DNA from: an uncultured Lachnospiraceae bacterium
GTDB lineage: Bacteria; Bacillota; Clostridia; Lachnospirales; Lachnospiraceae
Length of the DNA: 50,574 nt
Reading direction: 5' to 3'
NCBI GenBank assembly: GCA_947570615.1
Contig: CANOVJ010000024.1
Coordinates: 1 to 50,574 of the forward strand
In this document: piece by piece, positions 190 through 39,749 of the stretch
Layout: the number at the start of each line of letters is the position of its first letter
Numbering within the stretch: position 1 is the stretch's first letter
Made by a program: the position numbers and the translations under genes
Notes under the pieces: generated by a model
What the model was told of the DNA's origin: nothing
The model's input: only the letters and a program-made list of their open reading frames with translations
Database searches by the model: none

Positions 190-647
190 ACACCAGTAGC
201 TGAATATTTTAAAAAAAGCTTCCTGTGGAGGCTTATTCGCAGTGCGCTGGAAATGATTTCAAAAACATCTCTCTCCATATGCACAGGTATTCAACAGACT
301 GTTTTGCAAAGAGCGTCAAAATTGAAAGCCCATATACAGAGGCTGCCCGGACGCGCCTTTGTTCAACCAGGAAAAATCGAAAGTGATGCAAACGAAAGGG
401 CAGTTATCGAAAGATCAAAGCTGCTTTTTCGTTTGCACCACCTTCGATTCTTTCCTTAACGATTTGTGCAATAGAAATACACAGTCCCTGTGGGATATGA
501 TAAAAACGGTTACAGAGGCAGAGAACAGCAGACAGGGATTTACAGGCAGAAATATGGAGAGCATCATTTGTGGAAAAATCATCTGCGGGAGATTCTCCGG
601 CGGATAACTGTCTGCGGAAAGTTCTCAGAAAGAAAGGAGATTCAGGT
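190..647. other. Gene-free stretch upstream of the first sugar operon
   Basis: No convincing gene is seen; the short open frames here lack ribosome binding sites and family resemblance. It holds a small palindrome CACAG-TCC-CTGTG (480-492) and an imperfect 16-base direct repeat (582-597 and 611-626, 13 of 16 identical) just before the ribosome binding site of the next gene. Either could bind a regulator. No convincing -35/-10 pair was found, although the operon's promoter presumably lies here. Confidence 0.4.
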
Positions 648-2105
648 ATGAAAATGAAGAAGTTATTAGCAGTGTTGCTTGCCGGCGCGATGGTGATGTC
701 CATGGCGGGCTGCGGCGGCAGCGGGGGAAGCGGTAGCGCGGACTCCGGCAGCACAGGGAGCGACGCGGCGGCGGACGCCGGGGATACCGGTTCGTCAGCA
801 GATACGGGAAGCGCGGCGGACACAGGGAGTGCGTCGGAGAGCGGCGACGTTGTGGAGATCCGCTTTACGGAGTGGGACGGCGGCGACACCCTGGCCGTGT
901 ACGAGGAGGTGGCGGAGAAATTCAATTCCACCCATCCGGGTATTCATGTAACCGTTATGAACATTCCGGACGAGTACGACACCAAGATCACCACCATGAT
1001 TGCGGGAAACGATGTGCCGGAGGTGTGCTGCATGAACAGCGATACGCTTCTTTTCCCTCTGGCTGAGGAAGGGATTATAGCCAATCTGCAGGAGTATATT
1101 GACAATGATCCGGATTTCGATACAGAATGCGTCGGCGATCAGTTTAAGTATATGCTGAATGCGGACTATATGGCAGGCTACGGAGTTGGATCCGAGAATA
1201 TCACCATGTTCTACAACCCGGCTCTGTTTGCCCAGTATGGGGTGGAAGAACCCCCTGCGAGCTATGCGGACGCCTGGGACTGGGATACCTTTGTGGAGAA
1301 TGCGCAGAAGCTGACCATCGATAAGAATGGAAAGAATGCGCTTGACCCGGATTTTGATCCTGAGAATATCGACGTTTACGGAGTGACCATCTCCAAGTGG
1401 TGGGCTGGCTATATGCCCTTCCTGTTCAGCCAGGGCGGCGATTATCTGACAGCCGACGGCTCCGCCATCGGATATGCCACCCCGGAGGGTAAGGATGTGC
1501 TCCAGAAGCTGGCGGATCTTACTTATGTTTACCATGTAGCGCCTACGCCCACCACCAGCCAGACCATGCCCGGCCTTTCCGAGGCGCTGGCGACGAACAA
1601 GGTGGCCATGAGCTTTGACGGACAGTGGTCCAATGCGACCCTGATGAACGACGGCGTGGAGTACAATGTGGCGGCCCTTCCGAAGATGGGAGACAAGGCC
1701 CAGACCGTGGCAACCTTTGGCGCAATCGCGCTGATGAACACGGAGAAGGCGGACGCGGCCTTTGAGTTTGTCAAATTCATGATGACCGAGGTTGGGGCCT
1801 GCGAGCCTTTGTTCCTCTCCGGCCTGTGGCTTCCCACCAACATGAAGGAATACAACGATGATTATATCCAGTCAGTCATCACAGACAAGCATCCTTCCAA
1901 CTATTATGAGACCATTGTAAAGCCCATGATGGACGGGACGGCCAATACCCCGATCACTGCCTATGTGAAGAACTTTAACAAGATCAACGACGTCATCAGC
2001 CCTGCGCTGGATGATCTCTGGTCCGGTGAGAAGACTGCCGACGAGGCGATCAGCTCTATTGAAGCGGACGCCAATGCAGAGGTAGCGGGCTTCTACGGGA
2101 AATAA
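648..2105 (+). CDS. Sugar ABC transporter substrate-binding lipoprotein
   Basis: Extracellular solute-binding protein of the carbohydrate (CUT1) ABC type, 485 residues. The start is ATG 648, after AAAGGAG (634-640); an in-frame ATG at 570 lacks a ribosome binding site. Residues 1-21 are a signal peptide and Cys22 is the lipidated cysteine of the lipobox (SMAG-C). A linker of Gly, Ser, Ala and Asp runs to about residue 68, then the mature bilobed domain begins (VEIRFTEWDGGD). The protein should sit on the outer face of the membrane and deliver sugar to the permeases encoded next. The sugar is not evident, but the GH127 gene at the end of the operon suggests an arabinose-containing oligosaccharide (inference). 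Confidence 0.93.
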   Translation: MKMKKLLAVLLAGAMVMSMAGCGGSGGSGSADSGSTGSDAAADAGDTGSSADTGSAADTGSASESGDVVEIRFTEWDGGDTLAVYEEVAEKFNSTHPGIHVTVMNIPDEYDTKITTMIAGNDVPEVCCMNSDTLLFPLAEEGIIANLQEYIDNDPDFDTECVGDQFKYMLNADYMAGYGVGSENITMFYNPALFAQYGVEEPPASYADAWDWDTFVENAQKLTIDKNGKNALDPDFDPENIDVYGVTISKWWAGYMPFLFSQGGDYLTADGSAIGYATPEGKDVLQKLADLTYVYHVAPTPTTSQTMPGLSEALATNKVAMSFDGQWSNATLMNDGVEYNVAALPKMGDKAQTVATFGAIALMNTEKADAAFEFVKFMMTEVGACEPLFLSGLWLPTNMKEYNDDYIQSVITDKHPSNYYETIVKPMMDGTANTPITAYVKNFNKINDVISPALDDLWSGEKTADEAISSIEADANAEVAGFYGK

Positions 2106-2130
2106 GCGTCAGAGAGATCGGAAACTTTGG

Positions 2131-2160
2131 GAGTTGCCGCCGCAGGGCGGCAACTCTTTA
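2131..2160 (+). terminator. Hairpin after the binding-protein gene (partial terminator)
   Basis: A perfect 11-bp stem, 2131-2141 with 2146-2156, closes a GCAG loop and is followed by only a short run of T. It lies between the binding protein and its permeases. In such operons hairpins here commonly let some transcripts stop, so the binding protein is made in excess. Confidence 0.7.
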
Positions 2161-2227
2161 TCGGTAAGCCGATGCGCTAGGCGAGCCGTGTCTGATGACT
2201 GAAGCGGGGATTTGGAACTGTAAACGA

Positions 2228-2269
2228 CAGATATCCGGAGGCCGCACACAGAGGCCGGGGAGATATCTG
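2228..2269 (+). promoter_or_regulatory. Second stem-loop ahead of the first permease
   Basis: Inverted repeat CAGATATC (2228-2235) with GATATCTG (2262-2269), with an inner GGCC/GGCC pairing. It has no T tract and ends about 12 bases before the permease ribosome binding site. It could stabilise the permease mRNA or regulate it; no function is shown. Confidence 0.35.
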
Positions 2270-2293
2270 CGAAGCCAGAACAGGAGAATTTAT

Positions 2294-3202
2294 GTGAAAA
2301 AGAAGAAAACCATTAAAATGTCAACCTGGAACAACATTGTGGGGTGGGGCTTTGCGCTGCCAGCCGTGCTGGGGTTTTTGATTTTTAATCTGGTTCCCAT
2401 GGTGCTGAGCGGGTATTACAGCCTGTGCGACTACAATATCATCAAAACCCCGGAGTTTGTGGGATTTAAGAACTTTATCGCGCTTTTCACCGGTCAGGAA
2501 AAGACCTTCTGGCTCTCGGCCAAAGCGACGGTGCTCTACGCCATCATGGCGGTTCCGGCCAACCTGATCTTTGCCTTCATGATCGCCCTGCTCCTGAACT
2601 GCGATATGAAGATGAGAGCGTTCTTCCGCTCCCTGTTTTATCTGCCCTGCATTCTTCCGGCGGTGGCCAGCAGCTTTGTGTGGATCCTGCTGATGAACCC
2701 GGATTTCGGGCTCTTTAATACGATCCTGGAATGGCTCCACCTGCCAAAGAGCCAGTTCTTCTGGGGAAAGGACAGCGTTCTGCCCTCTATCGTCTTTATG
2801 GGGATCTGGGGCACGGGCTCCACCCAGGTGATCTTCCTGGCCGGTCTGCAGGATATTCCTTCCGTCTACTACGAGGCCCTGGAGATCGACGGCGGGAACG
2901 CCTGGCACAAATTCTGGAACGTGACCCTGCCCATGATTTCCTCCACCCTGTTCTTCAATCTGGTGATGGGGATCATCAACGCGCTGCAGGTGTTCGGCCA
3001 GGCCTACATCATCACCGAGGGCGGGCCCAACAACGCCTCCCTGTTCTATGTCTACAACCTGTGGCGGCAGGCCTTTAAATACATGGATATGGGAATGGCC
3101 TCAGCCATGGCCTGGGTGCTGTTCCTGGTGGTGCTGGTGCTGACGGCCTTTGTATTTAAGACGTCCAACAAATGGGTTTACTATGAAGGAGGCGAGGAAT
3201 GA
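2294..3202 (+). CDS. Sugar ABC transporter permease 1 (CUT1, MalF/UgpA type)
   Basis: Integral membrane permease, 302 residues, with about six hydrophobic segments and the conserved cytoplasmic loop that docks the ATPase (EALEIDGGNAWHKFWNVTLP, close to the family EAA signature EAA---G-----F--I-LP). GTG 2294 is taken as the start because AGGAG (2282-2286) lies seven bases upstream; the ATG at 2195 gives an atypical Arg-rich leader without a Shine-Dalgarno sequence. Its last four bases overlap the second permease. The operon has no ATPase gene, so a shared MsmK-like ATPase encoded elsewhere probably drives transport, as is usual in Firmicutes. Confidence 0.93.
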   Translation: MKKKKTIKMSTWNNIVGWGFALPAVLGFLIFNLVPMVLSGYYSLCDYNIIKTPEFVGFKNFIALFTGQEKTFWLSAKATVLYAIMAVPANLIFAFMIALLLNCDMKMRAFFRSLFYLPCILPAVASSFVWILLMNPDFGLFNTILEWLHLPKSQFFWGKDSVLPSIVFMGIWGTGSTQVIFLAGLQDIPSVYYEALEIDGGNAWHKFWNVTLPMISSTLFFNLVMGIINALQVFGQAYIITEGGPNNASLFYVYNLWRQAFKYMDMGMASAMAWVLFLVVLVLTAFVFKTSNKWVYYEGGEE

Positions 3203-4125
3203 TGGCGGGAAAGGGACAGACAAAAGAGGCGGCGCAGGCCATGGACGGAGGAGTCGTGTTGCATCCGCAGAAAAAAATGAGAAAAAAAAGAAGGCCTTAC
3301 TTCTATGTCAAAAAGGTGTTATTCTATACAGTATTACTGGCGCTTTCGCTGATCTGCGTGATCCCGCTCTACTGGATGCTGCGCTCCTCCTTCATGAAGA
3401 ACACGGATATCTACAGTATGAGGCCGTTTATCTTCTGGCCGAAGGAGATGCTCTGGAGCAATTATACGGACGCCCTGAAATCCGCAGACTTTGGACGGTA
3501 TGCAGTGAATACCATGGTCATCGTGATCGGATGCCTGGCAGGGACGCTTCTGACCTCCTCCATGGCGGCCTACGCCTTTTCCAGAGTGAAATGGAAGGGG
3601 CGGAGCTTCTGCTTTGCCATGATCCTGACCACCATGATGCTGCCCGGCTCGGTGACGCTGATCCCCCAGTTCATGATCTGGCGTAACCTGAATCTGGTGG
3701 ACACCTACCGGCCCCTGATCCTGCCCTCCTTTTTCGGCGGGGGAGCCTTCAATATCTTCCTGCTGCGGCAGTTTTTCCTGGGGATCCCTAGGGATCTGGA
3801 CGACGCGGCCAGGATCGACGGCGCGGGGCCCTTTCAGATCTATACCAGGATCATGCTGCCCTTATCCCGCTCGGCCATGGTGGTGGTGGCGCTGTTTACC
3901 TTTTTAAACTGCTGGAACGATTTCTTCGGTCCGATTATTTATTTAAACACCAAGGAAAACTTCACGCTGGCGGTAGGGCTGTTGCAGTTCCGGGGGGATT
4001 ATTCCACCAAGTGGAACCTGCTGATGGCGGCCTCCACCATCGTGGTGGCACCCTGTATCGTGATCTATCTGTTCGGGCAGAAGCAGCTCATAGAAGGAAT
4101 TTCGCTGACGGGCCTGAAAGCGTAG
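3199..4125 (+). CDS. Sugar ABC transporter permease 2 (CUT1, MalG/UgpE type)
   Basis: Second transmembrane subunit, 308 residues, with a basic cytoplasmic N-terminus of about 40 residues before the first membrane segment. The ATPase-docking loop is present (DAARIDGAGPFQIYTRIMLP). ATG 3199 overlaps the stop of the preceding permease by four bases and follows GAAGGAGG, so the two subunits are translationally coupled. A second ATG directly follows the first. It pairs with the upstream permease and binding protein to form one importer. Confidence 0.93.
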   Translation: MMAGKGQTKEAAQAMDGGVVLHPQKKMRKKRRPYFYVKKVLFYTVLLALSLICVIPLYWMLRSSFMKNTDIYSMRPFIFWPKEMLWSNYTDALKSADFGRYAVNTMVIVIGCLAGTLLTSSMAAYAFSRVKWKGRSFCFAMILTTMMLPGSVTLIPQFMIWRNLNLVDTYRPLILPSFFGGGAFNIFLLRQFFLGIPRDLDDAARIDGAGPFQIYTRIMLPLSRSAMVVVALFTFLNCWNDFFGPIIYLNTKENFTLAVGLLQFRGDYSTKWNLLMAASTIVVAPCIVIYLFGQKQLIEGISLTGLKA

Positions 4126-4165
4126 GGACGGGTTTCGCGGGTTGCCTTCAGGATTTATCCGCTGT

Positions 4166-4186
4166 CAGGGCCGGTTGCCGGCCCTG
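4166..4186 (+). promoter_or_regulatory. Stem-loop between permease 2 and GH127
   Basis: A perfect 9-bp stem (4166-4174 with 4178-4186) with a three-base TTG loop and no T tract. It is too GC-rich and tail-less to be an obvious terminator, and may act as an mRNA end or attenuation point between the transporter and the hydrolase. Confidence 0.4.
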
Positions 4187-4252
4187 CGGGAAGTCCATGA
4201 AAGGATCGGCGTTAAAGCATTTCATGAAAAAATACGGAAGGTGAGGAAAGAG

Positions 4253-6127
4253 ATGGAAAAATGTATGCCGGCAGGCTTTGAAAAAAGCAGCGTGACCGGG
4301 GGATTCTGGAAGAGGTATCAGGATCTGTTCCGGCGGGTGACCATCGATGCGGTGTATGACCGCTTCGAGGAGACCGGGCGCTTTGAGGCGCTGAAATTTA
4401 ACTGGAAGGAGGGAATGCCGAATAAGCCCCACATTTTCTGGGAGTCGGATGTGACCAAGTGGATCGAGGGGGCGGCGTATTTCCTTCAAAAGCAGCGGGA
4501 TCCGGAGCTGGAGGCGCGGATCGACGAGCTGGTGGAGCGGATGGAGCGTACCCAGGGGGAGGATGGCTACCTGAATGCGTACTTTACGGTGGTGGAGCCC
4601 GACGCCCGCTTCACAAGAAGGACGGATCATGAGCTGTACTGCGCGGGGCATCTGATCGAGGGAGCCATCGCCTACGCCAGGGCCACAGGAAAGGAGAACA
4701 TGCTCCGGGTTGCCATCCGGTATGCGGATCTCATCGACCGGGTGTTCCGGGCAGAGCACAGCGCGGCCTTTGACACCCCGGGACATGAGGAGATCGAGCT
4801 GGCCCTGGTGAAGCTCTACCACTATACGGGGCAGGAGCGGTATTTAAAGCTGGCGCAGTATTTCGTGGACACCAGGGGAACCAGCGGACGGGACGGGACA
4901 TATGATTTCACGGATCAGGAGCACATGCAGTCCCATCTTCCCGTGCGCAGCCAGAAGACGGCGGAGGGCCACAGTGTGCGGGCCCTGTATCTGTACAGCG
5001 GCATGGCGGACCTGGCCATGGAGAGAGGGGACGAGGAGCTGTTTTCCGTGTGCAGAGCGCTCTTTGACAACATTGTGAACCGGAGAATGTACATTACCGG
5101 AGGGGTGGGCTCCACCTGCCGGGGCGAGTCCTTTACCCTTGACTATGACCTGCCGGAGTACACGGCCTACAACGAGACCTGCGCCTCCATCGCGCTGGCG
5201 CTGTTCTGCCGCAGGATGTGGCTGATGGATCCCGACGGGCGTTATGGCGATGTGGCGGAGCAGGCCATCTACAACACGGTTCTCAGCGGCGTGTCCCTGT
5301 CGGGAGATGAGTTTTTCTACGAGAATCCCATGTCCACGGATCCCAGGAGGAATGCCTTTAACGACAGCAGGCCGAACGGGCTCAAGGAGCATCTGCCCAT
5401 TTTAAAGAGAGTGAAGGTGTTCGACTGCTCCTGCTGTCCTCCCAACCTGCTGCGGGCGGTGGGGAGCATCGCGGATTATCTGTACTCCACAGAGGGGAAC
5501 ACGATTTACGCCTACTGCTATATGGAGGCGGACACGGAGCTCTCCCTGGGGGAGAAAAAGATCCGCCTTGTGCAGAAGACAGGCTATCCCTTTGAGGGAA
5601 AGATCGTCATCACGGCAGAGGCAGAGGGGGATTTCACCCTGGCTCTGCGGATTCCCGGCTGGTGTCAGGGGGCCCGGATCACGGTCAATGGCGAGGCGCT
5701 TTCCTTACGGACGCAGAAGGGCTTTGCCTTCATCGAAAGAAGCTGGAAGAATGGGGATCAGGTTATTCTCGACCTTCCCATGGAGGCAAAGTGGATCAGC
5801 GCCAACCCGCAGGTCATCGACGCCTGCGGACGGGTGGCGGTCACAAGAGGGCCGCTGGTGTACTGTGCGGAGGGGATGGACAACGGCGACAGGCCCCTTA
5901 AGGACGTGCGCATCGCCAGAAACAGCCCGGTAGAGATCTCCATGGAGGAGATCGCAGGCTTCGCATTTCCGGTGATCCGCATGGAGGCGTCCTGCCGAAA
6001 GCCCTTTGAGGGGCTCTACAGTCAGGATCCTTTGGAGGAGGAGAGCTTTACGCTGAAGCTGATCCCGTATTTCGCCTGGACCAACCGGGACGTGACGGAG
6101 ATGACCACCTGGTTTCTGGAGAAATAA
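4253..6127 (+). CDS. GH127 beta-L-arabinofuranosidase-like glycoside hydrolase
   Basis: 624 residues, cytoplasmic (no signal peptide), the usual size for glycoside hydrolase family 127. ATG 4253 follows GTGAGGAAAG; the open frame extends further upstream without a ribosome binding site. The zinc/cysteine active site of the family is intact: Glu308 and Cys310 (NETCAS) and Cys394-Cys395 (CSCCPP), one of which is the nucleophile by analogy with HypBA1, while Glu292 (GESFT) fits the acid/base position. Family members release L-arabinofuranose from beta-arabino-oligosaccharides such as those on plant hydroxyproline-rich glycoproteins. As the last gene of the transporter operon it probably processes the imported oligosaccharide. 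GH127 includes other specificities, so the substrate is inferred. Confidence 0.88.
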   Translation: MEKCMPAGFEKSSVTGGFWKRYQDLFRRVTIDAVYDRFEETGRFEALKFNWKEGMPNKPHIFWESDVTKWIEGAAYFLQKQRDPELEARIDELVERMERTQGEDGYLNAYFTVVEPDARFTRRTDHELYCAGHLIEGAIAYARATGKENMLRVAIRYADLIDRVFRAEHSAAFDTPGHEEIELALVKLYHYTGQERYLKLAQYFVDTRGTSGRDGTYDFTDQEHMQSHLPVRSQKTAEGHSVRALYLYSGMADLAMERGDEELFSVCRALFDNIVNRRMYITGGVGSTCRGESFTLDYDLPEYTAYNETCASIALALFCRRMWLMDPDGRYGDVAEQAIYNTVLSGVSLSGDEFFYENPMSTDPRRNAFNDSRPNGLKEHLPILKRVKVFDCSCCPPNLLRAVGSIADYLYSTEGNTIYAYCYMEADTELSLGEKKIRLVQKTGYPFEGKIVITAEAEGDFTLALRIPGWCQGARITVNGEALSLRTQKGFAFIERSWKNGDQVILDLPMEAKWISANPQVIDACGRVAVTRGPLVYCAEGMDNGDRPLKDVRIARNSPVEISMEEIAGFAFPVIRMEASCRKPFEGLYSQDPLEEESFTLKLIPYFAWTNRDVTEMTTWFLEK

Positions 6128-6258
6128 GTACTTTTGGCATGTTGGCGGAAGGATGTACGGGAATGGCATATCTGCCAGAAGAAACAGGAATAATGGGAGA
6201 AGCCGGAGGCTGAAAATCAGAACAGACGCAGCCGCGCTTCGCGAGCCGGCTTATTTAA

Positions 6259-6304
6259 GAAGATCGGGCAGGGGAAATTGTTTTCCCCTGCCCGATCTTC
6301 CCTT
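6259..6304 (+). terminator. Strong terminator hairpin ending the GH127 operon
   Basis: A perfect 19-bp inverted repeat (6259-6277 with 6282-6300) with a TTGT loop. The following tail (CCTTAG) is T-poor, but the ends of the stem are A- and T-rich inside, so it could work in either direction. It separates the arabinan-type operon from the lower-GC cassette downstream. Confidence 0.75.
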
Positions 6305-6458
6305 AGTTGGAAAATCCTGACACCCTGGCTGTCGAACACCAGGGAACCAGGATCATCTCATCGGAATGCTACATTGAAAAATACTTTTCTCACAATTTTA
6401 TCCACAGGGACAGCAGTTGTCCAGTCGGTGTGTTATAATAAATCCATCAGGTATCCTC
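6305..6458. other. Non-coding stretch before the WYL remnant
   Basis: With 6128-6258 and the hairpin this makes about 330 bases without an intact gene. A TATAAT at 6434-6439 is present, but the best upstream hexamer (TTGTCC, 6417-6422) is only 11 bases away, so it is not a convincing promoter. Nothing else was recognised. Confidence 0.3.
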
Positions 6459-6713
6459 GAAAGTGAGGAATTTGTGAGGGGATACTTCAAGTACAGCGGC
6501 TATGTCAAACAGGGCGTCTAATATGGCGGGAAATTGGAGCATATCCAATTCCGCTATATGGGACCGTCTCTGGAGGCGGTGCTGGACCGTTTGCCGACGG
6601 CGGAGGCTGTAAGTGATGAGAATGGCGGATGGATCATTCGGGCAGAGGTGTTTGGAAAAGGGATTGATATGTGGCTGAGAAGTCAGGGCGACTATATTCA
6701 AAAAACAGATTAG
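6459..6713 (+). pseudogene. Decayed WYL-domain transcriptional regulator (C-terminal part)
   Basis: The frame ending at TAG 6711-6713 translates as the end of a WYL domain: a beta-strand region followed by LEAVLDRLPTAEAV and VFGKGIDMWLRSQGDYI. An in-frame TAA at 6519-6521 interrupts it, and the frame upstream (EFVRGYFKYSGYV) still looks like the same domain. The N-terminal helix-turn-helix region is missing. WYL-domain proteins are ligand-sensing transcription factors, often found next to defence genes. The fragment ends 12 bases before the next gene and shares its lower GC, so it may be the lost regulator of the cassette that follows (inference). Confidence 0.65.
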
Positions 6714-6725
6714 GGGGGATGATTT

Positions 6726-7565
6726 ATGCTCTATGCTAAACCGAAAAATGAAGCGCTTACCATCCATGAGAAAGCAGTCGCAAAATATAATGCTGCTTTC
6801 AGGAGGATGGAACAAATGGGAGGCCGTCTCTATGACAAGCGGTGTGATTGCGTTATATTAATCCGTGAGATTGAGTCTCTGGTGAACAGTATCGCGAACC
6901 GTCCCAAAGAATTTGAGAAGAAGATCTCTGAAATTCAGGCAGCGCGGGAAAAATTCCGGGAAACTGAGACTTATGCCGTGGAAGCGGTGGACGCCGTTGT
7001 GAAATCCGGAATGAGCGTTGTCGCCGGAGTGGCAGGTGGAGCAGCCGTGGCCAGTATGGCGCCCTCTGCCGCAATGTGGGTGGCCACAACCTTTGGAACT
7101 GCCTCTACCGGAACCGCAATATCAGCCCTGCATGGTGCGGTTGCTACAAAAGCTGCTCTGGCATGGCTGGGGGGCGGCGCATTATCTGCCGGCGGCGCGG
7201 GAATTGCAGGTGGTCAGGCCCTTCTGGCTTTGGCCGGCCCTATTGGCTGGGGAATCACCGGAGTGACTACGGCCGCGTCTGCTGTCGCGTTGGGACACAA
7301 GAATAAGCAGATTGCGGATGAGGCAATTGCCGAGGCCCGGAAAATTACTCTGGCCGGTGCGGAAGTGAACGAAACCTGCGCAAAAATTCAGCATCTTACG
7401 GACGAAACCATTATGCTCAGGGGGGCTCTGCGAGAACTGATGCAGGCCAATAAACCGCTGAAGGGAGCAAACTATCCGGAATTGTCTGAAGATCAGCAGT
7501 ACCGGCTTGGAACTATGGTAAACAACACTTTGACGTTGGCAGAGATGCTGAACAGAACGATTTAA
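6726..7565 (+). CDS. Unknown protein with helical arms and Gly/Ala-rich membrane core
   Basis: 279 residues; family not recognised. Residues 1-94 are charged and predicted helical, with heptad-like spacing (EFEKKISEIQAAREKFRETE). About 95-190 is a long Gly/Ala-rich hydrophobic stretch with glycine-zipper spacing, able to form several membrane helices, and 191-279 is helical again. This helix/hydrophobic-hairpin/helix plan recalls alpha-helical pore-formers or membrane-remodelling proteins, but no family motif supports that. There is no signal peptide. ATG 6726 follows GGGGGGATGATTT. It is the first of three genes spaced 15 and 16 bases apart, clearly co-transcribed, and by eye of lower GC than the flanks. 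Confidence 0.75.
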   Translation: MLYAKPKNEALTIHEKAVAKYNAAFRRMEQMGGRLYDKRCDCVILIREIESLVNSIANRPKEFEKKISEIQAAREKFRETETYAVEAVDAVVKSGMSVVAGVAGGAAVASMAPSAAMWVATTFGTASTGTAISALHGAVATKAALAWLGGGALSAGGAGIAGGQALLALAGPIGWGITGVTTAASAVALGHKNKQIADEAIAEARKITLAGAEVNETCAKIQHLTDETIMLRGALRELMQANKPLKGANYPELSEDQQYRLGTMVNNTLTLAEMLNRTI

Positions 7566-7580
7566 GGAGGGGGGTCCGTC

Positions 7581-9047
7581 ATGGACGTGGCGCGAATCGT
7601 AAAAAGTACGCAGGAACAGGGTTTGGCAGCATGGGTGGATTACCTGAATCAGATGCGGTTAAACGAGTTGCTGGCTAAACTGGCTGCACAGGATATAAAC
7701 TTGGAGCAGGCGTTGGCGGAGCTTCAGAAGATGAAGTTGAATATTGCTGAGTTAATTGCCAGTAACCGTGGCGGAGCAAAGGGAATCCATGGCTATATCG
7801 CAGAGCCGGCGGAGGCCGGCATTGAAAATGCCCGAAATCTTGTCAGAGGATTGCCGGCTGCCTGTAAGTGGATTAATGATAACGGGCCAATAGACCTGAT
7901 GCGGGACGGGGTGCCTGTTCAGCAAAAGTTTGTCAGAGCATTTTTCTCTTTGGGGAAAAATGGCGGCGTCCTGGAGCACTTTGAGGACTATCCTTTCTTT
8001 GTGAAGCAGGGCGGTAAATATCAAATCCCAAAGGATTTTTATGATGTTGTAATGGAGCTATGGGAAATGCCCCAGGATGTGGCAGGAAAGCTGGTTAAGA
8101 ACAGTCCCGATGGAGCGAGAGGGCTGACATATGAAAACTGGCAGAAGATTCACGATTTTTTTGAAAGCAGCGGCATTCATCCGGATGATCTGGAGCCTTC
8201 TGTGTTGAATTACGACGACGTACAAAAAGGGACGATTGACAGAACCATTCAACGGGAAGAAGCCTCCATCAAAGAGACCGATCAGCGCCGTCGGGATGCG
8301 GCCTATGAAGACAGTAAACCCACGCTGAAACAGGGGGCGCAGGCTGCGGCAGTTTCTGCGGCGGCGGAGGGCGGTATGGCCTTCTGCCTGGGTGTGGCCA
8401 AAAAGCGGAAACAGGGAAAACACCTGGCGGAGTTCTCGGCAGAGGACTGGAAGGAAGTTGGCATTGACACAGCCAGAGGAACTGTTCAGGGAGGCATCCG
8501 GGGCGGAACCATTTATGCAATGACGAATTTCACCGCAACGCCCGCCGCGGTGGCAAACGCCTTGGTAACGGCGTCTTTCGGCGTTGCTGCGCAGGCTTAT
8601 CAGCTTCGACAGGGAAATATTACGCAGGAGGATTTCATTGTCAACTCAGAGGTGCTCTGCCTTGACGTATCCGTAAGCGCGGTCGCTTCCCTGCTGGGGC
8701 AGACGCTGATTCCGGTTCCCGTTCTTGGCGCGGTCATCGGTAATGTGGCTGGTATGTTCCTGTATCAGATCGCAAAGGAGAATCTCTCCGCCAGGGAACA
8801 GACGCTGATTTCCAATTATCAGGAAAGCTTCGAAAGTCTCAACAGAGTGCTGGAGCAACGATATCAGAAACTGATTGCCCAGTTGAAAAAGGAGCTTGCG
8901 AGATACGCGTCCATGTTGGAACTGGCTTTTGACCCGGATGTCAATATTGCCTTTGGCGGCTCTATTGCACTGGCAGACTATGTCGGCGTATCACAGGAAA
9001 AGGTATTGAGAGACAAACACGATATCGATAAATACTTTATGAATTAA
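7581..9047 (+). CDS. Unknown 488-residue protein with glycine-zipper-like segments
   Basis: Family not named with confidence. The N-terminal ~240 residues are soluble and include what look like conserved motifs (SNRGGAKGIHGYIAE near 60-75; WINDNGPIDLMRDGVPVQQK near 95-115; GGKYQIPKDFYD near 140). Three small-residue-rich hydrophobic stretches follow, at about 249-270, 301-342 and 362-398. The C-terminus is charged and helical (LSAREQTLISNYQESFESLN) and may form a coiled coil. ATG 7581 follows TAAGGAGGGGGG. As the middle gene of the three-gene cassette, it probably works at the membrane with its neighbours. No enzymatic motif was seen. Confidence 0.75.
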   Translation: MDVARIVKSTQEQGLAAWVDYLNQMRLNELLAKLAAQDINLEQALAELQKMKLNIAELIASNRGGAKGIHGYIAEPAEAGIENARNLVRGLPAACKWINDNGPIDLMRDGVPVQQKFVRAFFSLGKNGGVLEHFEDYPFFVKQGGKYQIPKDFYDVVMELWEMPQDVAGKLVKNSPDGARGLTYENWQKIHDFFESSGIHPDDLEPSVLNYDDVQKGTIDRTIQREEASIKETDQRRRDAAYEDSKPTLKQGAQAAAVSAAAEGGMAFCLGVAKKRKQGKHLAEFSAEDWKEVGIDTARGTVQGGIRGGTIYAMTNFTATPAAVANALVTASFGVAAQAYQLRQGNITQEDFIVNSEVLCLDVSVSAVASLLGQTLIPVPVLGAVIGNVAGMFLYQIAKENLSAREQTLISNYQESFESLNRVLEQRYQKLIAQLKKELARYASMLELAFDPDVNIAFGGSIALADYVGVSQEKVLRDKHDIDKYFMN

Positions 9048-9063
9048 AAGGAGGACACTTTAG

Positions 9064-9588
9064 ATGGAAACAAACGATAAGATGGATTATGAGGATGATT
9101 TTCTGGAAGATATTCAGGAGTATGAGTACCAGGAAATGTTTGAAAAGGCCAATAACATCGTACTTGGATTTACGGCGACGACTGGAGCGACAGGGGCGAT
9201 TCCGCTTCCTTTTGCGGATGCCCCACTGCTGATTGGACAGCAGGTGGCTATGATGATGGCTATTAATGGTGTTTTTGAATTTGATATTGACCGTGATGCG
9301 CTTGCGTCCCTGGCAACGGCAGTCATCGGCGTTGGCGGCGCAACAGTAATTGGAAAAACGGTGGTGTCCAATCTTCTGAAATTCATCCCCGGAGTGGGTA
9401 CGGTTGCAGGCGGCGCAATTTCCGCCGGTACGGCAGGGATTATCACATTGGCACTGGGGAAAGCCTATATCGAAGTCTGTAAGGCAATTAAAATGGGAAA
9501 ACTGGATCAAAGTGATCTGTCCAGGCAGGCTGGAAAGGATATGCTGAAAAAAGCTTTCAGAGAGCAGATGAAGCAGAACAGGAAGTAG
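9064..9588 (+). CDS. DUF697-like membrane-associated protein
   Basis: 174 residues. An acidic N-terminus (1-30) precedes two hydrophobic regions: about 34-62 (TGAIPLPFADAPLLIGQQVA) and 80-140, which includes LLKFIPGVGTVAGGAISAGT. That last pattern is characteristic of the DUF697/YcjF-like domain, usually found C-terminal to dynamin-like or Era-like GTPases. Here it stands alone, with no GTPase motif. The C-terminus is basic (MLKKAFREQMKQNRK). ATG 9064 follows AAAAGGAGG, 16 bases after the preceding stop. DUF697 proteins associate with membranes, but their biochemical role is unknown. Confidence 0.8.
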   Translation: METNDKMDYEDDFLEDIQEYEYQEMFEKANNIVLGFTATTGATGAIPLPFADAPLLIGQQVAMMMAINGVFEFDIDRDALASLATAVIGVGGATVIGKTVVSNLLKFIPGVGTVAGGAISAGTAGIITLALGKAYIEVCKAIKMGKLDQSDLSRQAGKDMLKKAFREQMKQNRK

Positions 9589-9613
9589 TCCTGGACACAG
9601 GGCTGTTCAAAGA

Positions 9614-9649
9614 GCCCGGGCCATCCGCTTTTAGCGGGCGGCCCGGGAC
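9614..9649. terminator. GC-rich hairpin between convergent genes
   Basis: CCCGGGCC pairs with GGCCCGGG, and an inner CCGCT/AGCGG stem closes a TTT loop, with one mismatch and one wobble pair. There is no T tract on either strand. Its position between a plus-strand operon and a minus-strand gene fits a bidirectional transcription end. Confidence 0.55.
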
Positions 9650-9682
9650 AATGTTCGCGCTGACGGCTCAGAATTAATCAGA

Positions 9683-9964: not shown

Positions 9965-11831
9965 TCAGGCCGTCTGCGCCGGAATCAGGATCCTGACTAC
10001 TGTCCCCGCTCCCGGCTCAGATTCAATGGTAAGACTGTAACTTTCCCCGTAGAGCAGATCAAGTCTCTGCCGGACATTGGAAAGGCCCACGTGGCCCTGC
10101 GGATGAGAGAGCAGCATGTAATTTGCAAGCTGCTCTTTTGTCATGCCCTGCCCGTTGTCCCCGATCAGGAAAAGGATCTGCTCCCCCGCCCGGGAGACGG
10201 TGATGGAGAGAAGCCCCCCTTCCCGGGTATGGGAAAATCCGTGGAGAATGGAGTTTTCCACCAGAGGCTGGAGCAGAAGCTTGGGAACGAGCATGTCCAT
10301 CAGGTTCTCGTCGATGTCCATCCGGGTGCTGAAGACATTGTCGTAGCGTCTTGCCATGATGTGGAGATAACTGGAGACCCAGCCGATCTCCTCGGACAGG
10401 GGCATCTTTTCCGCGAAGCTTTTGAAGGTGTACTGGAGCATCTCGGAGAGATCCACGATCAGATCGGAGGTTTCCTCGTCGTCGTTCTGGATGGCCAGCA
10501 GGTTGATGGTGTTTAAGGTGTTGTAGAGAAAATGAGGATTGATCTGCATGGACAGGGCGGCAAGCTGGCTCTCCTTCTCCCGCAGGGAGATCTCATAGTT
10601 TTCCAGAATCAGCCGGCTGATCTCCCGCTCCATGTGGTTGAAGCTCTCCGTGAGGAGCTTAAAATCGCCGCCCCCGGGCACCGGCGTGTTGGCGGAAAAA
10701 TCCCCTCCGGCCACCCGCAGGGATGCGTCGGTCAGCCGCTGGATGGGCTGGGTGATGGTGCGGGAGAGGAAGAAGGCCACCAGAAAGGAGCAGATGACCA
10801 GGATGGCCACGCTGAAAAACTGGATACGGCGGATGGCAGAGACAGTGCTCTGCATCAGGATATCCCGTGGCACCAGGGCCAGGGACAAAAGCCCGCCGTC
10901 CGCCAGGGGGTCGTAGCACAGCAGGAATTCCCTGCCGTCGATCCGGCAGGCGAGATAGCCGGAGGAGGAAAAGAGGGGGGAGAAATCCGGCAGACCAAAA
11001 TCCGCCCCTGCCTGCTCCGCAAACGTCCCTCCTGTGGGGAAGCGGGCGTTGTCGGAGGAGATCACGCGCCCCTCCCGGTTGATGATAAGGCACAGGCTTC
11101 CCGGAAAGCTCAGACTGCCCTGATAGAGCTTACGCAGATCCTGCTCCAGGATATGAACCACCAGGATGGGCTTTTCCGTCTTCCCGGAGAGCTTCTGGTA
11201 GGCGCTTTGGGAATGGAACTGGAAGTCCATCTCCCGCACCATGGTCAGGGGATACTGATAGTCGTAGCTTCCCTTTTTCTGCAGGAAGTCTGATCCGATG
11301 CGCTCCCCGTAGTCGTAGCCGCTGATCCAGCAGGGAGCGCCCGCGCCCTCCCGTGCGATCCGGTCAAAGCCGGCCTTTCGCATGCCCTCCCCGGTGATGG
11401 GCAGCACGCTGGCGTTGGTGTTGAAAATCCATTTACTGGTGTAGAGGCAGGTCTTGTACACGTTCTGCTGGAGGGAAAAATCTCTGGCCATCTCCGCCGG
11501 CAGCAGGCGGTCATATCGCAGACAGTCCCCCACCGTAAGCTCATCCAGCCGGGAAAAAATTTCATAGTAAAATTCGTTGTTCAGCATCAGGTTGGAGGCG
11601 TTCTCAACCCCCCTCCAGGAGCACGTTGATCACGTTGTTGTTGGCCCTGACCACGGAGAGGGTGCTGCGGGAGGCCTCGGTGATAAGGCGCCGCTCGTAC
11701 AGATGCATCATGAGCTGCTGGATGCTGAGCAGGGGAACCAGGGCAAACAGAAGCAGGATGAGGGTCAGCCGGCTGGCGAACGTGAGGGAGGAGAGCTTTT
11801 GCAGGAATTTGTGAAGGAGTTTTTTCAGCAT
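9965..11831 (-). pseudogene. YesM-type sensor histidine kinase, interrupted by a +1 frameshift
   Basis: Two adjacent open frames form one kinase gene. The first (11831-11604, 75 residues) holds the start, a basic leader and the first membrane helix (LTLILLLFALVPLLSIQQLM). The second (from 11587, 540 residues) has the extracellular sensor region, a second membrane helix, HAMP (RLTDASLRVAGGDFS), the His_kinase box (SMQINPHFLYNTLN) and the ATPase domain (GDNGQGM). They are out of register by one base in a G6 tract (plus-strand C6, 11608-11613). With five G the frame reads through as VLLEGVENASNLMLNN, giving a normal kinase of about 620 residues. The start overlaps the regulator stop by seven bases. 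It may be a sequencing error, phase variation or real decay. Confidence 0.85.
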
Positions 11832-13435
11832 TTTTTGTGGGCCTTTCTGTATTGCTCCGGTGAGGTGCCGTATTTGCGGTGAAAAATGCGGTTGAAGTAG
11901 CTGCTGTCCCTGTAGCCGCAGGCACTGGCAATGTCCATGACCTTAAGATCCGTCTCCAGAAGAAGCTGCCTTGCCTTTTCCGTGCGCAGATAGCCCAGAT
12001 AGCTGCTGTAGGTCATGCCCGTCTTTTTCAGGATCTGGGCGGAGAGGTAGCTGGCGGAGAAATGCACCTGGTCCGCCAGCTGCTTAAGGGAGAGCTCTTC
12101 GGTGAAATGCTTTTTCACAAAGGCGATCACATCCTCCACCGTATCGTACTGTCCGCTCTCCTGGGAAAAGCAGGCGGCGGTGCGCTCAAGAAGGGAGAGG
12201 GAGATGGAAAACAGATCCTCCAGGGCGTCGCAACCGCTGTAAAGGTGGTAGGCGTCGTTTAAGATGCTGTCGTATTCCCCGCTGGAGACCATGCCGTCCA
12301 GATCCTTGATGAGGGACACTGTCAGGGAGGAAACGCCGTGGCGCACCCGTGAGGGGGAGAGAAGAGGCTCCCGGGAAAGCTCCCTTTTCAGGCACAGGAG
12401 CACCTCCCGGATTCCCGTAAGATTCCCGGTGTGAACCGCTCTGCGGATGTCCTTTTCGAAGCCGGAGAGGGAGGGCAGGGGCAGGTCCGGCCCGATCCGC
12501 TCATCCGCGCAGGAAAAGAGCATGGTCCGGCCGGGAAAATAAAAGGAGAAGGAGAGCGCCTCCTGAGCCTGGCACAGGGAGGCGTTCAGGGCCGGAAAGA
12601 GCTCCTCCTGCTCTGAGGATATCCCGGCCTGGAAGACGATCTCCTCCTCCTGACACAGCTCCATGAGCCTTTTAAGCGCGGCCTGACAGTCGGGGACGCG
12701 AAAGCCGGGGAGCAGAAGAGCCAGGCGGCGTTCGCCGCTGTTCAGGGGATTCTCCAGGGGGACCAGGGCCTGTGTGGAAAAAATCTGGCGGATATGCTCT
12801 GTCAGTATTTCCTGTCTGCGGCGGGAGAGAGCGAAGGCGGGAGGGGAGACGCCTGCGGGGGCCGTCCGTGTGATCCATCTGAGAACGACCAGAAGACCCG
12901 GGCGGCGCAGGGAATCGGCCAGAGCATCATAAAGGGGCGAGGGCTTTGGGGAACGGACGGCGTAGAGCAGACCGAGAAGGAGCTTCTGTCTCTCGTCCCG
13001 GAGATTCTGCTCGAGAAGGGCCTCGTAGTCCATACTGCGCTCTGCGTCCCTGTGCAGGGCGGAGATTCTCTCCTGCATTTTGGACAGGAGCCTGCGGATA
13101 TCCTCCACCCGAAACGGTTTGATCAGATATTCCGAGACGCCGCAGGAGATGGCGCTTCTGGCATAGTCGAATTCCTGGTAAGCGCTGATGAGCACGATGG
13201 CGATGTGGGGATACTGGGCGGATACTCTGCTGATCAGCTCCATGCCGTCCATGGAGGGCATGCGGATATCGGTGATCAGAAGCTCCGCATCGCCCTCCTG
13301 GATCGCCTGCCAGGCTTCCTGACCGTCACAGCACAGCGCCAGCTCCGTGGCGGGCGTGAGCCTGTGGATCAGGGAGCTCAGTATTTTGAGCTGGGTGCCC
13401 TCGTCGTCGGCCAGCACAATTTTTCGGATGTACAT
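11825..13435 (-). CDS. YesN-type response regulator, AraC DNA-binding domain
   Basis: 536 residues. The N-terminal receiver domain has the acidic pair D10-D11, the phosphoacceptor Asp56 (LLITDIRMP) and Lys106 (YLIKPF). A long linker of about 300 residues follows, then a C-terminal AraC-type double helix-turn-helix (SLKQLADQVHFSASYLS and IASACGYRDSSYFNRIFHRKYG). It should activate sugar-utilisation genes when phosphorylated by the overlapping YesM-type kinase. ATG 13435 follows GAGAGGAG. A near-consensus promoter lies about 60 bases upstream. The pair sits between two carbohydrate loci and is divergent to the GH106-like gene, so either could be its target. With the kinase frameshifted, this regulator may be unresponsive. 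Confidence 0.93.
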   Translation of the reverse strand: MYIRKIVLADDEGTQLKILSSLIHRLTPATELALCCDGQEAWQAIQEGDAELLITDIRMPSMDGMELISRVSAQYPHIAIVLISAYQEFDYARSAISCGVSEYLIKPFRVEDIRRLLSKMQERISALHRDAERSMDYEALLEQNLRDERQKLLLGLLYAVRSPKPSPLYDALADSLRRPGLLVVLRWITRTAPAGVSPPAFALSRRRQEILTEHIRQIFSTQALVPLENPLNSGERRLALLLPGFRVPDCQAALKRLMELCQEEEIVFQAGISSEQEELFPALNASLCQAQEALSFSFYFPGRTMLFSCADERIGPDLPLPSLSGFEKDIRRAVHTGNLTGIREVLLCLKRELSREPLLSPSRVRHGVSSLTVSLIKDLDGMVSSGEYDSILNDAYHLYSGCDALEDLFSISLSLLERTAACFSQESGQYDTVEDVIAFVKKHFTEELSLKQLADQVHFSASYLSAQILKKTGMTYSSYLGYLRTEKARQLLLETDLKVMDIASACGYRDSSYFNRIFHRKYGTSPEQYRKAHKKC

Positions 13436-37707: not shown

Positions 37708-38484
37708 TTATGCAAAAGGCTTCTCGATAATCTGTTTAATATATCCGTTTTCAATTATAAAGAAAAATGGCATTTTGGGCTCTCCATTATCATAGGTTTC
37801 TATGTATTTTTGAAATTCTTCAATATCTGTTGTGGTATATTCTTCTGGAGACTCTGCTCCCGTAAAATCTCCATTCCAGTCAATAAATGTATAAACTGTT
37901 TCTGCATTACATTTCCATATGGTTACTTCCTCATCTGAGTTAAAAATATAGCAGCCATCTGGCATATCCTCCTCTGTTATTTTCAGTTCCTTTATCCTTT
38001 CCTTGTTCGTGTCTGTGATGTATTCTACAATATCAACTGTGATATTATCAGCCAAAACATTTTTGATAAATGCTGCCACATCTTCTTCATATACAGCCTG
38101 TTCAGATTGTATAATACTATTTAAATCGGCAGGTTCTTTTGGCACAAATTGTATCCATTGTCCATTCAGATTGACGGCAATACCATTACCATTAAATATT
38201 ATTCCAGAACCAATGCATCCGAAGTTTGATTGAAACTCCACGCCCGGTTCTTTCGTTCTACTGACGGCAGATTCGATTATGCCAATATAGGGTGAATCAT
38301 ATTCTGAAACTTCTGCTTCCTGAAGAACCATTTCTGAAACATCCTGATTTGTGGACACAAATAATCTGCCTGAAACAAAAACCATTTGTTGCTTTTTTGT
38401 TAATGCAGGAAAAAGTACCGCTATAACAACTATAATAACAACACTGATAACCCCAATACCTGCCGTGATTTTCTTCTTGTTCAT
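37708..38484 (-). CDS. Membrane-anchored protein in an ECF-sigma module, unknown role
   Basis: 258 residues. One N-terminal membrane helix (about 6-28; ITAGIGVISVVIIVVIAVLF), then an extracytoplasmic domain rich in acidic residues. No family was named. ATG 38484 is chosen because AAAGGAG lies just upstream; the frame opens 24 bases earlier without a site. It is the last gene in the minus-strand set, 57 bases after the probable anti-sigma gene, and may be a sensor or target of the sigma factor. It is AT-rich compared with the GC-rich neighbours. Confidence 0.7.
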   Translation of the reverse strand: MNKKKITAGIGVISVVIIVVIAVLFPALTKKQQMVFVSGRLFVSTNQDVSEMVLQEAEVSEYDSPYIGIIESAVSRTKEPGVEFQSNFGCIGSGIIFNGNGIAVNLNGQWIQFVPKEPADLNSIIQSEQAVYEEDVAAFIKNVLADNITVDIVEYITDTNKERIKELKITEEDMPDGCYIFNSDEEVTIWKCNAETVYTFIDWNGDFTGAESPEEYTTTDIEEFQKYIETYDNGEPKMPFFFIIENGYIKQIIEKPFA

Positions 38485-38541
38485 GCCTGTAGCACTCCTT
38501 TCTTTCATCGCATTTGTCCATTGCAGGCTGCTCTTTGACAG

Positions 38542-39153
38542 TTACTTCCCGAATACATCATCAACCACAAATTGAATATCTTTAATTTCAGACATCATTT
38601 TACTATATGCTGTTTTCTGTTCTTCATTCTCCGGATCATACTGTACATCACTCGCATAATGAAGAACATATGTCTTGTTACTTGTCGCTAAAATATATCG
38701 ATACGCCGTGAAATCAAGACCATTTTCTATGAATTGTTCTTCTGTCATAGCTTCTTCGTAGCAGACAATCGTAAAAAGGACGCCGCCGTCCCACGGGCTT
38801 ATTCTGTCACTGACATTTTTTTTGCTCTGTAAATGATAAACAATATAGTTCTGCCCATTCTTTTCTACCACATATTGACCTTTCCAACTATCGGGAAATA
38901 TTAGTGAAAGATTGATTCCCTCTAATTCTATAATTTCCTGGGTTACTGGCACTTCTACAATGATTTCGCGGGAAAAAGCCATTGCGCCAACACTAAAGCT
39001 GGATAACATCAGTACCAGAACAGCCGCAGTTGCTAAAAGTTGTTTTATTCTCCTTTTCCGATTCCGCATGACATAATTAGGAATCTGCTCTGCTTGTTGA
39101 ACAAGTCTGTCATCAATGTTTCCAATATGCTCTGAAATCTGTTTTTTATTCAT
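38542..39153 (-). CDS. Probable anti-sigma factor (membrane protein)
   Basis: 203 residues: a cytoplasmic N-terminus of about 36 residues (KKQISEHIGNIDDRLVQQAE), one membrane helix (about 37-62, LLATAAVLVLMLSSFSVGAM) and an external domain of about 140 residues. This is the layout of anti-sigma factors, with the cytoplasmic part holding the sigma factor. ATG 39153 overlaps the sigma gene stop by four bases (ATGA), the usual sigma/anti-sigma coupling. The external domain resembles no family I can name. Confidence 0.72.
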   Translation of the reverse strand: MNKKQISEHIGNIDDRLVQQAEQIPNYVMRNRKRRIKQLLATAAVLVLMLSSFSVGAMAFSREIIVEVPVTQEIIELEGINLSLIFPDSWKGQYVVEKNGQNYIVYHLQSKKNVSDRISPWDGGVLFTIVCYEEAMTEEQFIENGLDFTAYRYILATSNKTYVLHYASDVQYDPENEEQKTAYSKMMSEIKDIQFVVDDVFGK

Positions 39154-39707
39154 ACCTCAAATCCCTCGCTTTCTAAGTAACCTCTTAACTTTTGACGCAT
39201 TCCATATAGCATGGATTTTACTTTGCTTTGCGAAAAACCCGTACTTTTACAAATGTTTTCAATGGAATCAAAATACCAGTAACGCCTGATGAAAACATTC
39301 CTCTTTTCCTCACTCTGTCGCCAAAGAAATTTATCAATTGTGCGTTCTATATGCCGTTTTTCAATTTCAGATTCGACACTGTTTGTTCCAGATACACAAT
39401 CCCCCAATTCATCTAAAGATGTAATTGCAGCAGGATTTCTCTTTACCGCAGAAAGATATTCATATTTTTTTAATGCCAAATTTCTTGTAATTCTGCTCAC
39501 AAAAGCTGAAAATCTATTTGGACGCTCATCTGGAATCGCATTCCATACAGCAAAAAATGTATCATTCACACATTCCTCGCTATCTTCGTAGCTGGATAGA
39601 ATATTTTGAGCAATATGTGTGCATAATCCACCATATTTTAAAGAGGTTTCTTTAATTGCCTGTTCATTTCGCTCCCAGTATAATTCTACAATCCTATTAT
39701 CTTCCAC
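39150..39707 (-). CDS. ECF-type RNA polymerase sigma factor
   Basis: 185 residues. Sigma region 2 is seen in YEDSEECVNDTFFAVWNAIP and FVSRITRNLALKKYEY; region 4 in FIRRYWYFDSIENICKSTGF and SKVKSMLYGMRQKLRGYL. GTG 39707 is preferred as the start since AGGGGAGG lies just before it; an ATG at 39749 has no such site. It should direct RNA polymerase to a small set of promoters, probably including its own. The gene's AT-rich codon use differs from the surrounding chromosome, which suggests acquisition from elsewhere. Confidence 0.9.
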   Translation of the reverse strand: MEDNRIVELYWERNEQAIKETSLKYGGLCTHIAQNILSSYEDSEECVNDTFFAVWNAIPDERPNRFSAFVSRITRNLALKKYEYLSAVKRNPAAITSLDELGDCVSGTNSVESEIEKRHIERTIDKFLWRQSEEKRNVFIRRYWYFDSIENICKSTGFSQSKVKSMLYGMRQKLRGYLESEGFEV

Positions 39708-39732
39708 ATGAATTTTCCTCCCCTGTATCTTT

Positions 39733-39749
39733 TTGAAAGCTGCTTTCAA
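39733..39749. promoter_or_regulatory. Perfect inverted repeat upstream of the ECF gene
   Basis: TTGAAAGC-T-GCTTTCAA, a perfect 8+1+8 inverted repeat, 26 bases before the ECF start codon on its leader side. It could be a regulator site or a small mRNA hairpin. Confidence 0.4.

Follow-up and report, generated by a model that had tools for sequence, protein, structure and literature searches.

A PDC-M09-type gene pair with an added DUF697 gene, a candidate phage-defence cassette in an uncultured Lachnospiraceae bacterium

Introduction

The described systems closest to the gene cassette examined here are PDC-M09, PDC-M40 and Bunzi. The PDCs, to which the first two belong, were reportedly introduced by Payne et al. 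in 2024, and Bunzi, with its components BnzA and BnzB, is said to have been described by Millman et al. in 2022. PDCs are defence candidates found by a 'guilt-by-embedding' approach; PADLOC-DB represents PDC-M09 by two protein models, PDC-M09A and PDC-M09B. In PMC10952713, TerB is listed as a domain of Bunzi and of a further defence system, Shango. Here we analyse three adjacent genes, designated A, B and C, in a DNA stretch of 50,574 nucleotides (the window) on contig CANOVJ010000024.1 (assembly GCA_947570615.1) of an uncultured Lachnospiraceae bacterium. A and B are an already catalogued, predicted phage-defence candidate, PDC-M09, to which the window adds a stand-alone DUF697 gene and the remnant of a WYL-type regulator. 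The original prediction, made from the sequence of the window alone, had put the three-gene cassette forward as a candidate for an undescribed system; with A and B already present in PADLOC-DB, that description does not stand.

Results

Against the models of PADLOC-DB 2.0.0, A matches PDC-M09A from end to end (E 4.4e-97, residues 1-279 on model positions 1-280 of 282), as B does PDC-M09B (E 3.7e-211, residues 2-488 on positions 3-486 of 486), and the two genes are adjacent on the same strand. The literature searched yielded no paper naming PDC-M09 and no experimental test of the pair. The window differs from PDC-M09 in its extra DUF697 gene and its WYL regulator tail; C matches neither PDC-M09 model, and its sole PADLOC listing at E<=1 is PDC-S29 (E 0.069). 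DUF697 is usually fused to a GTPase domain. In C it spans residues 13-155 of 174 (PF05128, 42.0 bits against a cut-off of 27.7, E 1.1e-10), and the protein is not fused to such a domain. A housekeeping origin was rejected: B is patchily distributed. With model PDLC04408 at E<=1e-3, and counting the window's own genome, it turns up in 3 of the 37 genus genomes, in 10 of the 200 family genomes and in 6 of 398 from the phylum, a census that divergent B proteins escape. No significant match to any housekeeping complex was found.

Matches to PDC-M09A at E<=1e-3 occur in 58 of 397 genomes of the family, again including the window's own. When all 35 listed A places of at least 80 bits were read, a B-type gene lay within three open reading frames (ORFs) of A on the same strand in 32, although the B class models were built from these same neighbourhoods and the count therefore leans towards pairing. 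An independent scan against PADLOC assigned all eight representative B-type proteins, two of which (L021 and L024) come from outside the 35 places, to PDC-M09B, PDC-M40B or BnzB. Each of the three exceptions has a particular neighbour: a TerB-like gene adjoins A in L083, the neighbouring gene in L136 is interrupted by what by eye is a transposase-like gene, and the 490-residue neighbour in L138 carries, by eye, a comparable E...D...VQxKF pattern, with weak similarity to the window-type domain (hhalign P 0.0017, probability 15%). The locus L025 encodes a fusion of A and B in a single 758-residue frame, and there the A model matches both ends of the A part but not the middle of it. The locus L002 encodes an A 76% and a B 75% identical to those of the window, yet shares no neighbouring gene with it. 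From the pairing and the one fusion, we infer that the two proteins work together in a membrane-associated complex. The original prediction had named, as outcomes that would refute it, homologues that do not occur together or a match to a housekeeping complex; the survey came out in its favour, with homologues of A and B found together and no housekeeping complex matched significantly, while C is an optional addition.

Homologues of C were found in seven of 60 relatives, a count that includes the window's own genome and one weak match, and C accompanies A and B in five loci read, namely the window, L002, L064, L169 and L170. Five other places in the same genus were read for C neighbourhoods, two of them ending at contig ends. 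In L172 the C homologue is a protein of 376 residues with, by eye, a P-loop-like front. In two congeners, G817 and G793, A, B and C are followed by a helix-turn-helix (HTH)-dynamin-like GTPase of 736 or 737 residues (L169, 4139-9169; L170, 3947-9082), and on a Lactococcus plasmid (L085) two HTH-dynamin genes lie around A and B. A search of 37 genomes of the genus gave HTH-dynamin matches in 25, at full length only in these two congeners; the remaining matches, including that in the window's genome, reach at most 27 bits and lie nearly all over the N-terminal HTH part, so that no full-length HTH-dynamin was found in the window's genome. In Bacillus subtilis, lysis of infected cells is delayed by DynA (PMC8844932), which makes a membrane-guarding role for the HTH-dynamin partners plausible. 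A is weakly similar to LeoBC of the dynamin-like defence system Leo (E 0.0013 for the window, 8.9e-8 for L072), a likeness that may be compositional; unlike these dynamin-like proteins, A shows no GTPase domain.

Relatives of B differ at the N-terminus, which is an E-D-QxK domain in the window, an HNH-like domain in PDC-M40B and a BnzB domain in Bunzi; the HNH-like and other N-terminus readings were made by eye and receive no support from Pfam. By best class, the 35 places hold 14 BnzB-like, seven window-type, six HNH-like (of which L049 and L133 are partial matches with weak scores) and five short B proteins, and none in three. Short B proteins of 285-288 residues that lack the N-terminal domain adjoin A in L028, L029, L030, L065 and L066. 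The short B of L066 is followed by a kinase-like gene whose start resembles a zinc ribbon, perhaps a detached effector. The protein of L067 directly ties two of the families, since it carries both a BnzB match (37-403, E 1e-109) and, following it, a match to PDC-M09B (410-479, 2.9e-6); the B-type protein of L075 matches BnzB at E 2e-130. Relatives of A thus adjoin BnzB-type proteins, with TerB-type genes in some of these arrays, whereas the window's own B has no BnzB match at E<=1. As to PDC-M40, an A-family protein lies near a PDC-M40B protein in L072 (E 1e-44), but the N-terminal domain is another one, HNH-like by eye, and a CxxCxxCC gene intervenes between B and A. Such a CxxCxxCC-type gene sits between B and A in many loci (PF03692 in the one tested, L072), and a TerB-type gene lies in or beside the array in some (PF05099 in the one tested, L073). 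Neither type was found among the ORFs of the window with three hidden Markov models, each built from 2-4 sequences.

The N-terminal domain of the window's B has conserved polar residues in an order reminiscent of an active site. Across 13 aligned rows, E75, N83, D105, Q114, K116 and P150 are invariant and D152 is conserved in at least 90%; E75, D105, Q114 and K116 are also invariant in a separate alignment of nine rows, and in one of 25 rows the E and K are invariant, Q is conserved in at least 90% and D105, as aligned, in less than 90%. The PD-(D/E)XK nuclease superfamily is characterised by E, D and (D/E/Q)xK residues in that order, which is also the order of E75, D105, Q114 and K116. A model of this domain from the homologue L095 (predicted local distance difference test, pLDDT, 90.1) runs helix-strand-strand-helix-strand, with E45 on the first helix and D78, Q87 and K89 at strands; these four residues correspond to E75, D105, Q114 and K116 of the window. 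The effector-like domain appears to have a confidently modelled fold and an active-site-like E-D-QxK set, and has no solved relative detected here. Its resemblance to a PD-(D/E)XK nuclease is by motif and topology only; structure searches with the L095 model gave no significant match, so that a nuclease activity is putative. When A, B and the N-terminal domain were used as sequence queries against solved structures, no usable match came back. The full-length model of B (pLDDT 60, predicted template-modelling score 0.41) carries none of our claims; its Foldseek search gave nothing significant (best E 0.33), and several proteins of complex I and of the TIM23 complex appeared at E 1-6 with probabilities up to 0.82.

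The surroundings of these loci are mobile and rich in defence genes. A random draw of 140 of the 193 neighbour proteins matched 61 PADLOC families at E<=1e-20, as against four among 126 control proteins from 16 contig-1 stretches of genomes with A; because a single protein may match several families at once and the stretches of contig 1 were not drawn at random, we take this difference as a strong hint rather than a measured enrichment. The neighbour families include, among the 25 listed, type IV and type II restriction genes, AbiEii, PDC-S01 and PDC-M12A, while those of the control (mad3, with five members, mad2, SspA and DndA) we read as housekeeping relatives. B occurs in 61 plasmid records, 46 of them from Klebsiella, and in all seven plasmid records read the A model matches the gene adjoining B; in a record from a Leptolyngbya plasmid, McrBC adjoins B. 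Six viral contigs carry full A and B, and ten flanking proteins from four of the six match baseplate, replication, NinB, CII-like, head or tail families. Searching the viral contigs with three alignments of the N-terminal domain yielded 5, 1 and 1 loci, six of the seven being contigs already found with A and B; in L160, B stands without A within a stretch that stops at the contig end. A tblastn search of phages with the N-terminal domain returned zero matches. In L093 (4932-7299, on the same contig as L159), A and B lie in opposite orientation between the baseplate genes of a probable prophage. A phage tail origin of A was considered and rejected, its matches to PHROG tape-measure families (best 1.1e-4, residues 75-224) looking compositional.

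Just upstream of A (Table 1), positions 6522-6701 correspond to the final ~60 residues of seven complete WYL-type regulators (tblastn, 39-63% identity, best E 7e-24), and the one of the seven that was tested, from L064, contains WYL PF13280. The window copy has lost its regulator. Taken alone, the remnant gives zero matches to Pfam or NCBIfam at E<=1, neither WYL PF13280 nor an HTH family, because the C-terminal tail is all that remains. In L064, L072, L073, L075 and L076 a WYL-type regulator immediately precedes the set, and in L079 and L080 one lies upstream with small ORFs in between; L092 and L160 have weaker upstream matches (E 9e-4 and 1e-5). In L002 the upstream trace amounts to eight insignificant residues, and no WYL gene otherwise lies upstream.

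Table 1. Features of the cassette and its borders (window coordinates).
Feature	Position	Strand	Description
Gene A	6726-7565	+	279 aa (amino acids); Gly/Ala-rich hydrophobic core between more polar ends; near-constant partner; PDC-M09A
Gene B	7581-9047	+	488 aa; variable N-terminal domain and conserved hydrophobic C-terminal module; PDC-M09B
Gene C	9064-9588	+	174 aa; stand-alone DUF697 protein; optional third gene
Effector-like N-terminal domain of B	7722-8300	+	conserved E75, N83, D105, Q114, K116, P150, D152 (E-D-QxK pattern)
C-terminal hydrophobic module of B	8328-9044	+	kept in several relatives with other N-terminal domains or none
WYL-type regulator remnant	6522-6713	+	C-terminal ~60 codons only; in-frame stop at 6519-6521
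Possible terminator, 19-bp hairpin, upstream junction	6259-6300		6255-6310 folds at -38.9 kcal/mol (z -8.2, 200 shuffles)
Possible terminator, GC-rich hairpin just 3' of gene C	9615-9647		z -3.7 for the whole folded stretch 9590-9665

A, B and C are full-length open frames, separated by 15 bases (A-B) and 16 bases (B-C), and the two hairpins of Table 1 flank the cassette on either side. By the Kyte-Doolittle scale, Gly/Ala-rich hydrophobic stretches occupy residues 82-191 of A, 252-274 and 311-399 of B, and 32-144 of C. The GC content of the cassette is 51.3%, against 58.7% in the upstream and 58.0% in the downstream gene, and its GC at third codon positions (GC3) is 0.50-0.57, against 0.77-0.78 in the flanking genes; 98 of 955 sliding windows of cassette length across the 50.6-kb window have an equal or lower GC, and the dip is genuine, yet not extreme. 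The architecture given in the original prediction, with its three closely spaced genes, glycine-rich hydrophobic segments in each protein, stand-alone DUF697-like protein, GC below that of both flanks and decayed WYL regulator, is borne out, and its interpretation as a whole is partly supported.

Upstream of the cassette lies a sugar-transport-like operon (570-6127; by eye a binding protein, two permeases and a 661-residue glycoside-hydrolase-like protein), which the cassette parts from a sensor kinase/regulator pair at 9965-13435. Among the congeners, G822 (L132) best matches part of the flank, and there the regulator, kinase, binding protein and permeases are contiguous. This contiguity suggests an insertion in the window without proving one; no clean empty site was obtained, and gene order in G822 differs from that of the window. 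The cassette was probably acquired horizontally. Elsewhere in the window, three minus-strand genes at 37708-39749 have a GC of 35-37% and a GC3 of 0.29-0.34, far below the other ORFs of at least 150 residues; by eye they encode a sigma-factor-like protein (199 residues), a membrane-anchored protein (203 residues) and a third protein of 266 residues, and are perhaps a separately acquired unit of the extracytoplasmic function (ECF) type.

Discussion

We consider it rather probable that the cassette is a phage-defence candidate of PDC-M09 type that was acquired and that carries, in addition, a DUF697 gene and the remains of a WYL regulator, and in which A serves as anchor or sensor and B as a membrane effector. 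This reading is based on the gene content, the homology, the pairing, the modularity and the mobile, defence-rich context of the loci. For the complex, its seat in the membrane, its trigger, its target, its catalysis and its anti-phage outcome, we propose the following. A and B would form a membrane-bound complex in which A, the near-constant component, is the membrane-seated anchor or sensor and B is the effector, its C-terminal module lying in or on the membrane. Infection would disturb this complex, and the damage would then be done by the N-terminal domain of B, the part that varies among relatives. In the window, this domain may cut DNA near the membrane, be it that of the entering phage or that of the host cell; this nuclease step, taken by itself, is tentative, its chances lying a little short of even. 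C could be an accessory part that helps to seat or remodel the membrane, as could the HTH-dynamin GTPase of the two congeners and the Lactococcus plasmid, and the decayed WYL gene would formerly have controlled expression.

A membrane-acting form of abortive infection is the strongest of the alternatives, though in our view an unlikely one. On infection, A and B, together with C, would make or open a pore or otherwise perturb the membrane, and B would use its N-terminal domain for sensing rather than as a nuclease. This alternative would account for the Gly/Ala-rich hydrophobic stretches in all three proteins, for the short B that stands beside A without an N-terminal domain, and for the dynamin-like and DUF697 partners. 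That structure searches with the L095 model of the N-terminal domain gave no significant match also favours it. However, this domain holds a large share of the best-conserved polar residues of B, in an active-site-like order, and relatives carry HNH-like (by eye) or BnzB domains at the same place. Of the roles that the original prediction had suggested for the cassette, defence is likely; membrane disruption is one possible mechanism, although the part of B that varies looks like an enzyme domain.

It is quite improbable, in our estimation, that the genes are a Ter-like module responding to membrane or metal stress, with any effect on phage being secondary. The proposal draws on the Ter systems of IncFIB plasmids: in both Klebsiella plasmid records read, out of the 46, ter genes lie within 4 kb of A and B, which on these conjugative plasmids are accompanied by a HAD hydrolase gene (L087, 8123-18554; L088, 8153-17771). 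The TerB (tested in L073) and CxxCxxCC (tested in L072) genes beside A in other subfamilies would fit it as well. In the window, however, neither gene was found with the models built here; TerB itself is among the domains named for Bunzi and Shango in PMC10952713, and defence families are more numerous around the loci than in the control. A polymorphic toxin for interbacterial competition, with A delivering or translocating B and the N-terminal domain as toxic payload, comes close to the competition idea of the original prediction and would suit one near-constant partner with differing enzyme-like domains, but is very improbable, since no delivery gene was noticed in or beside the set (by inspection, with no signal-peptide or secretion program), no immunity gene is consistent and C is absent from most loci read, the pair is carried within prophages, and sister forms have the Bunzi BnzB domain.

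Within the defence reading that we favour, it is possible, although we would not call it likely, that PDC-M09, PDC-M40 and Bunzi share a single modular immune chassis, of which each is a version. In it a near-constant Gly/Ala-rich membrane protein A, perhaps a dynamin-like stalk that lacks its GTPase, would hold a B protein composed of a retained membrane tail and an exchangeable N-terminal effector; expression would be under WYL control, and TerB, CxxCxxCC, DUF697 or HTH-dynamin proteins would be optional partners. Four elements are new in that they were not found in the literature searched: the form with three genes, the link to Bunzi and PDC-M40 by way of the near-constant partner, the HTH-dynamin companion in congeners and the confident model of the effector-like domain.

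If this proposal is correct, several separately named candidates and Bunzi would merge into a single modular family whose common handle is gene A. An untested catalogue entry would become testable as to which part senses infection and which part acts, and dynamin-like GTPases, DUF697 and TerB would be linked to a single membrane-seated mechanism.

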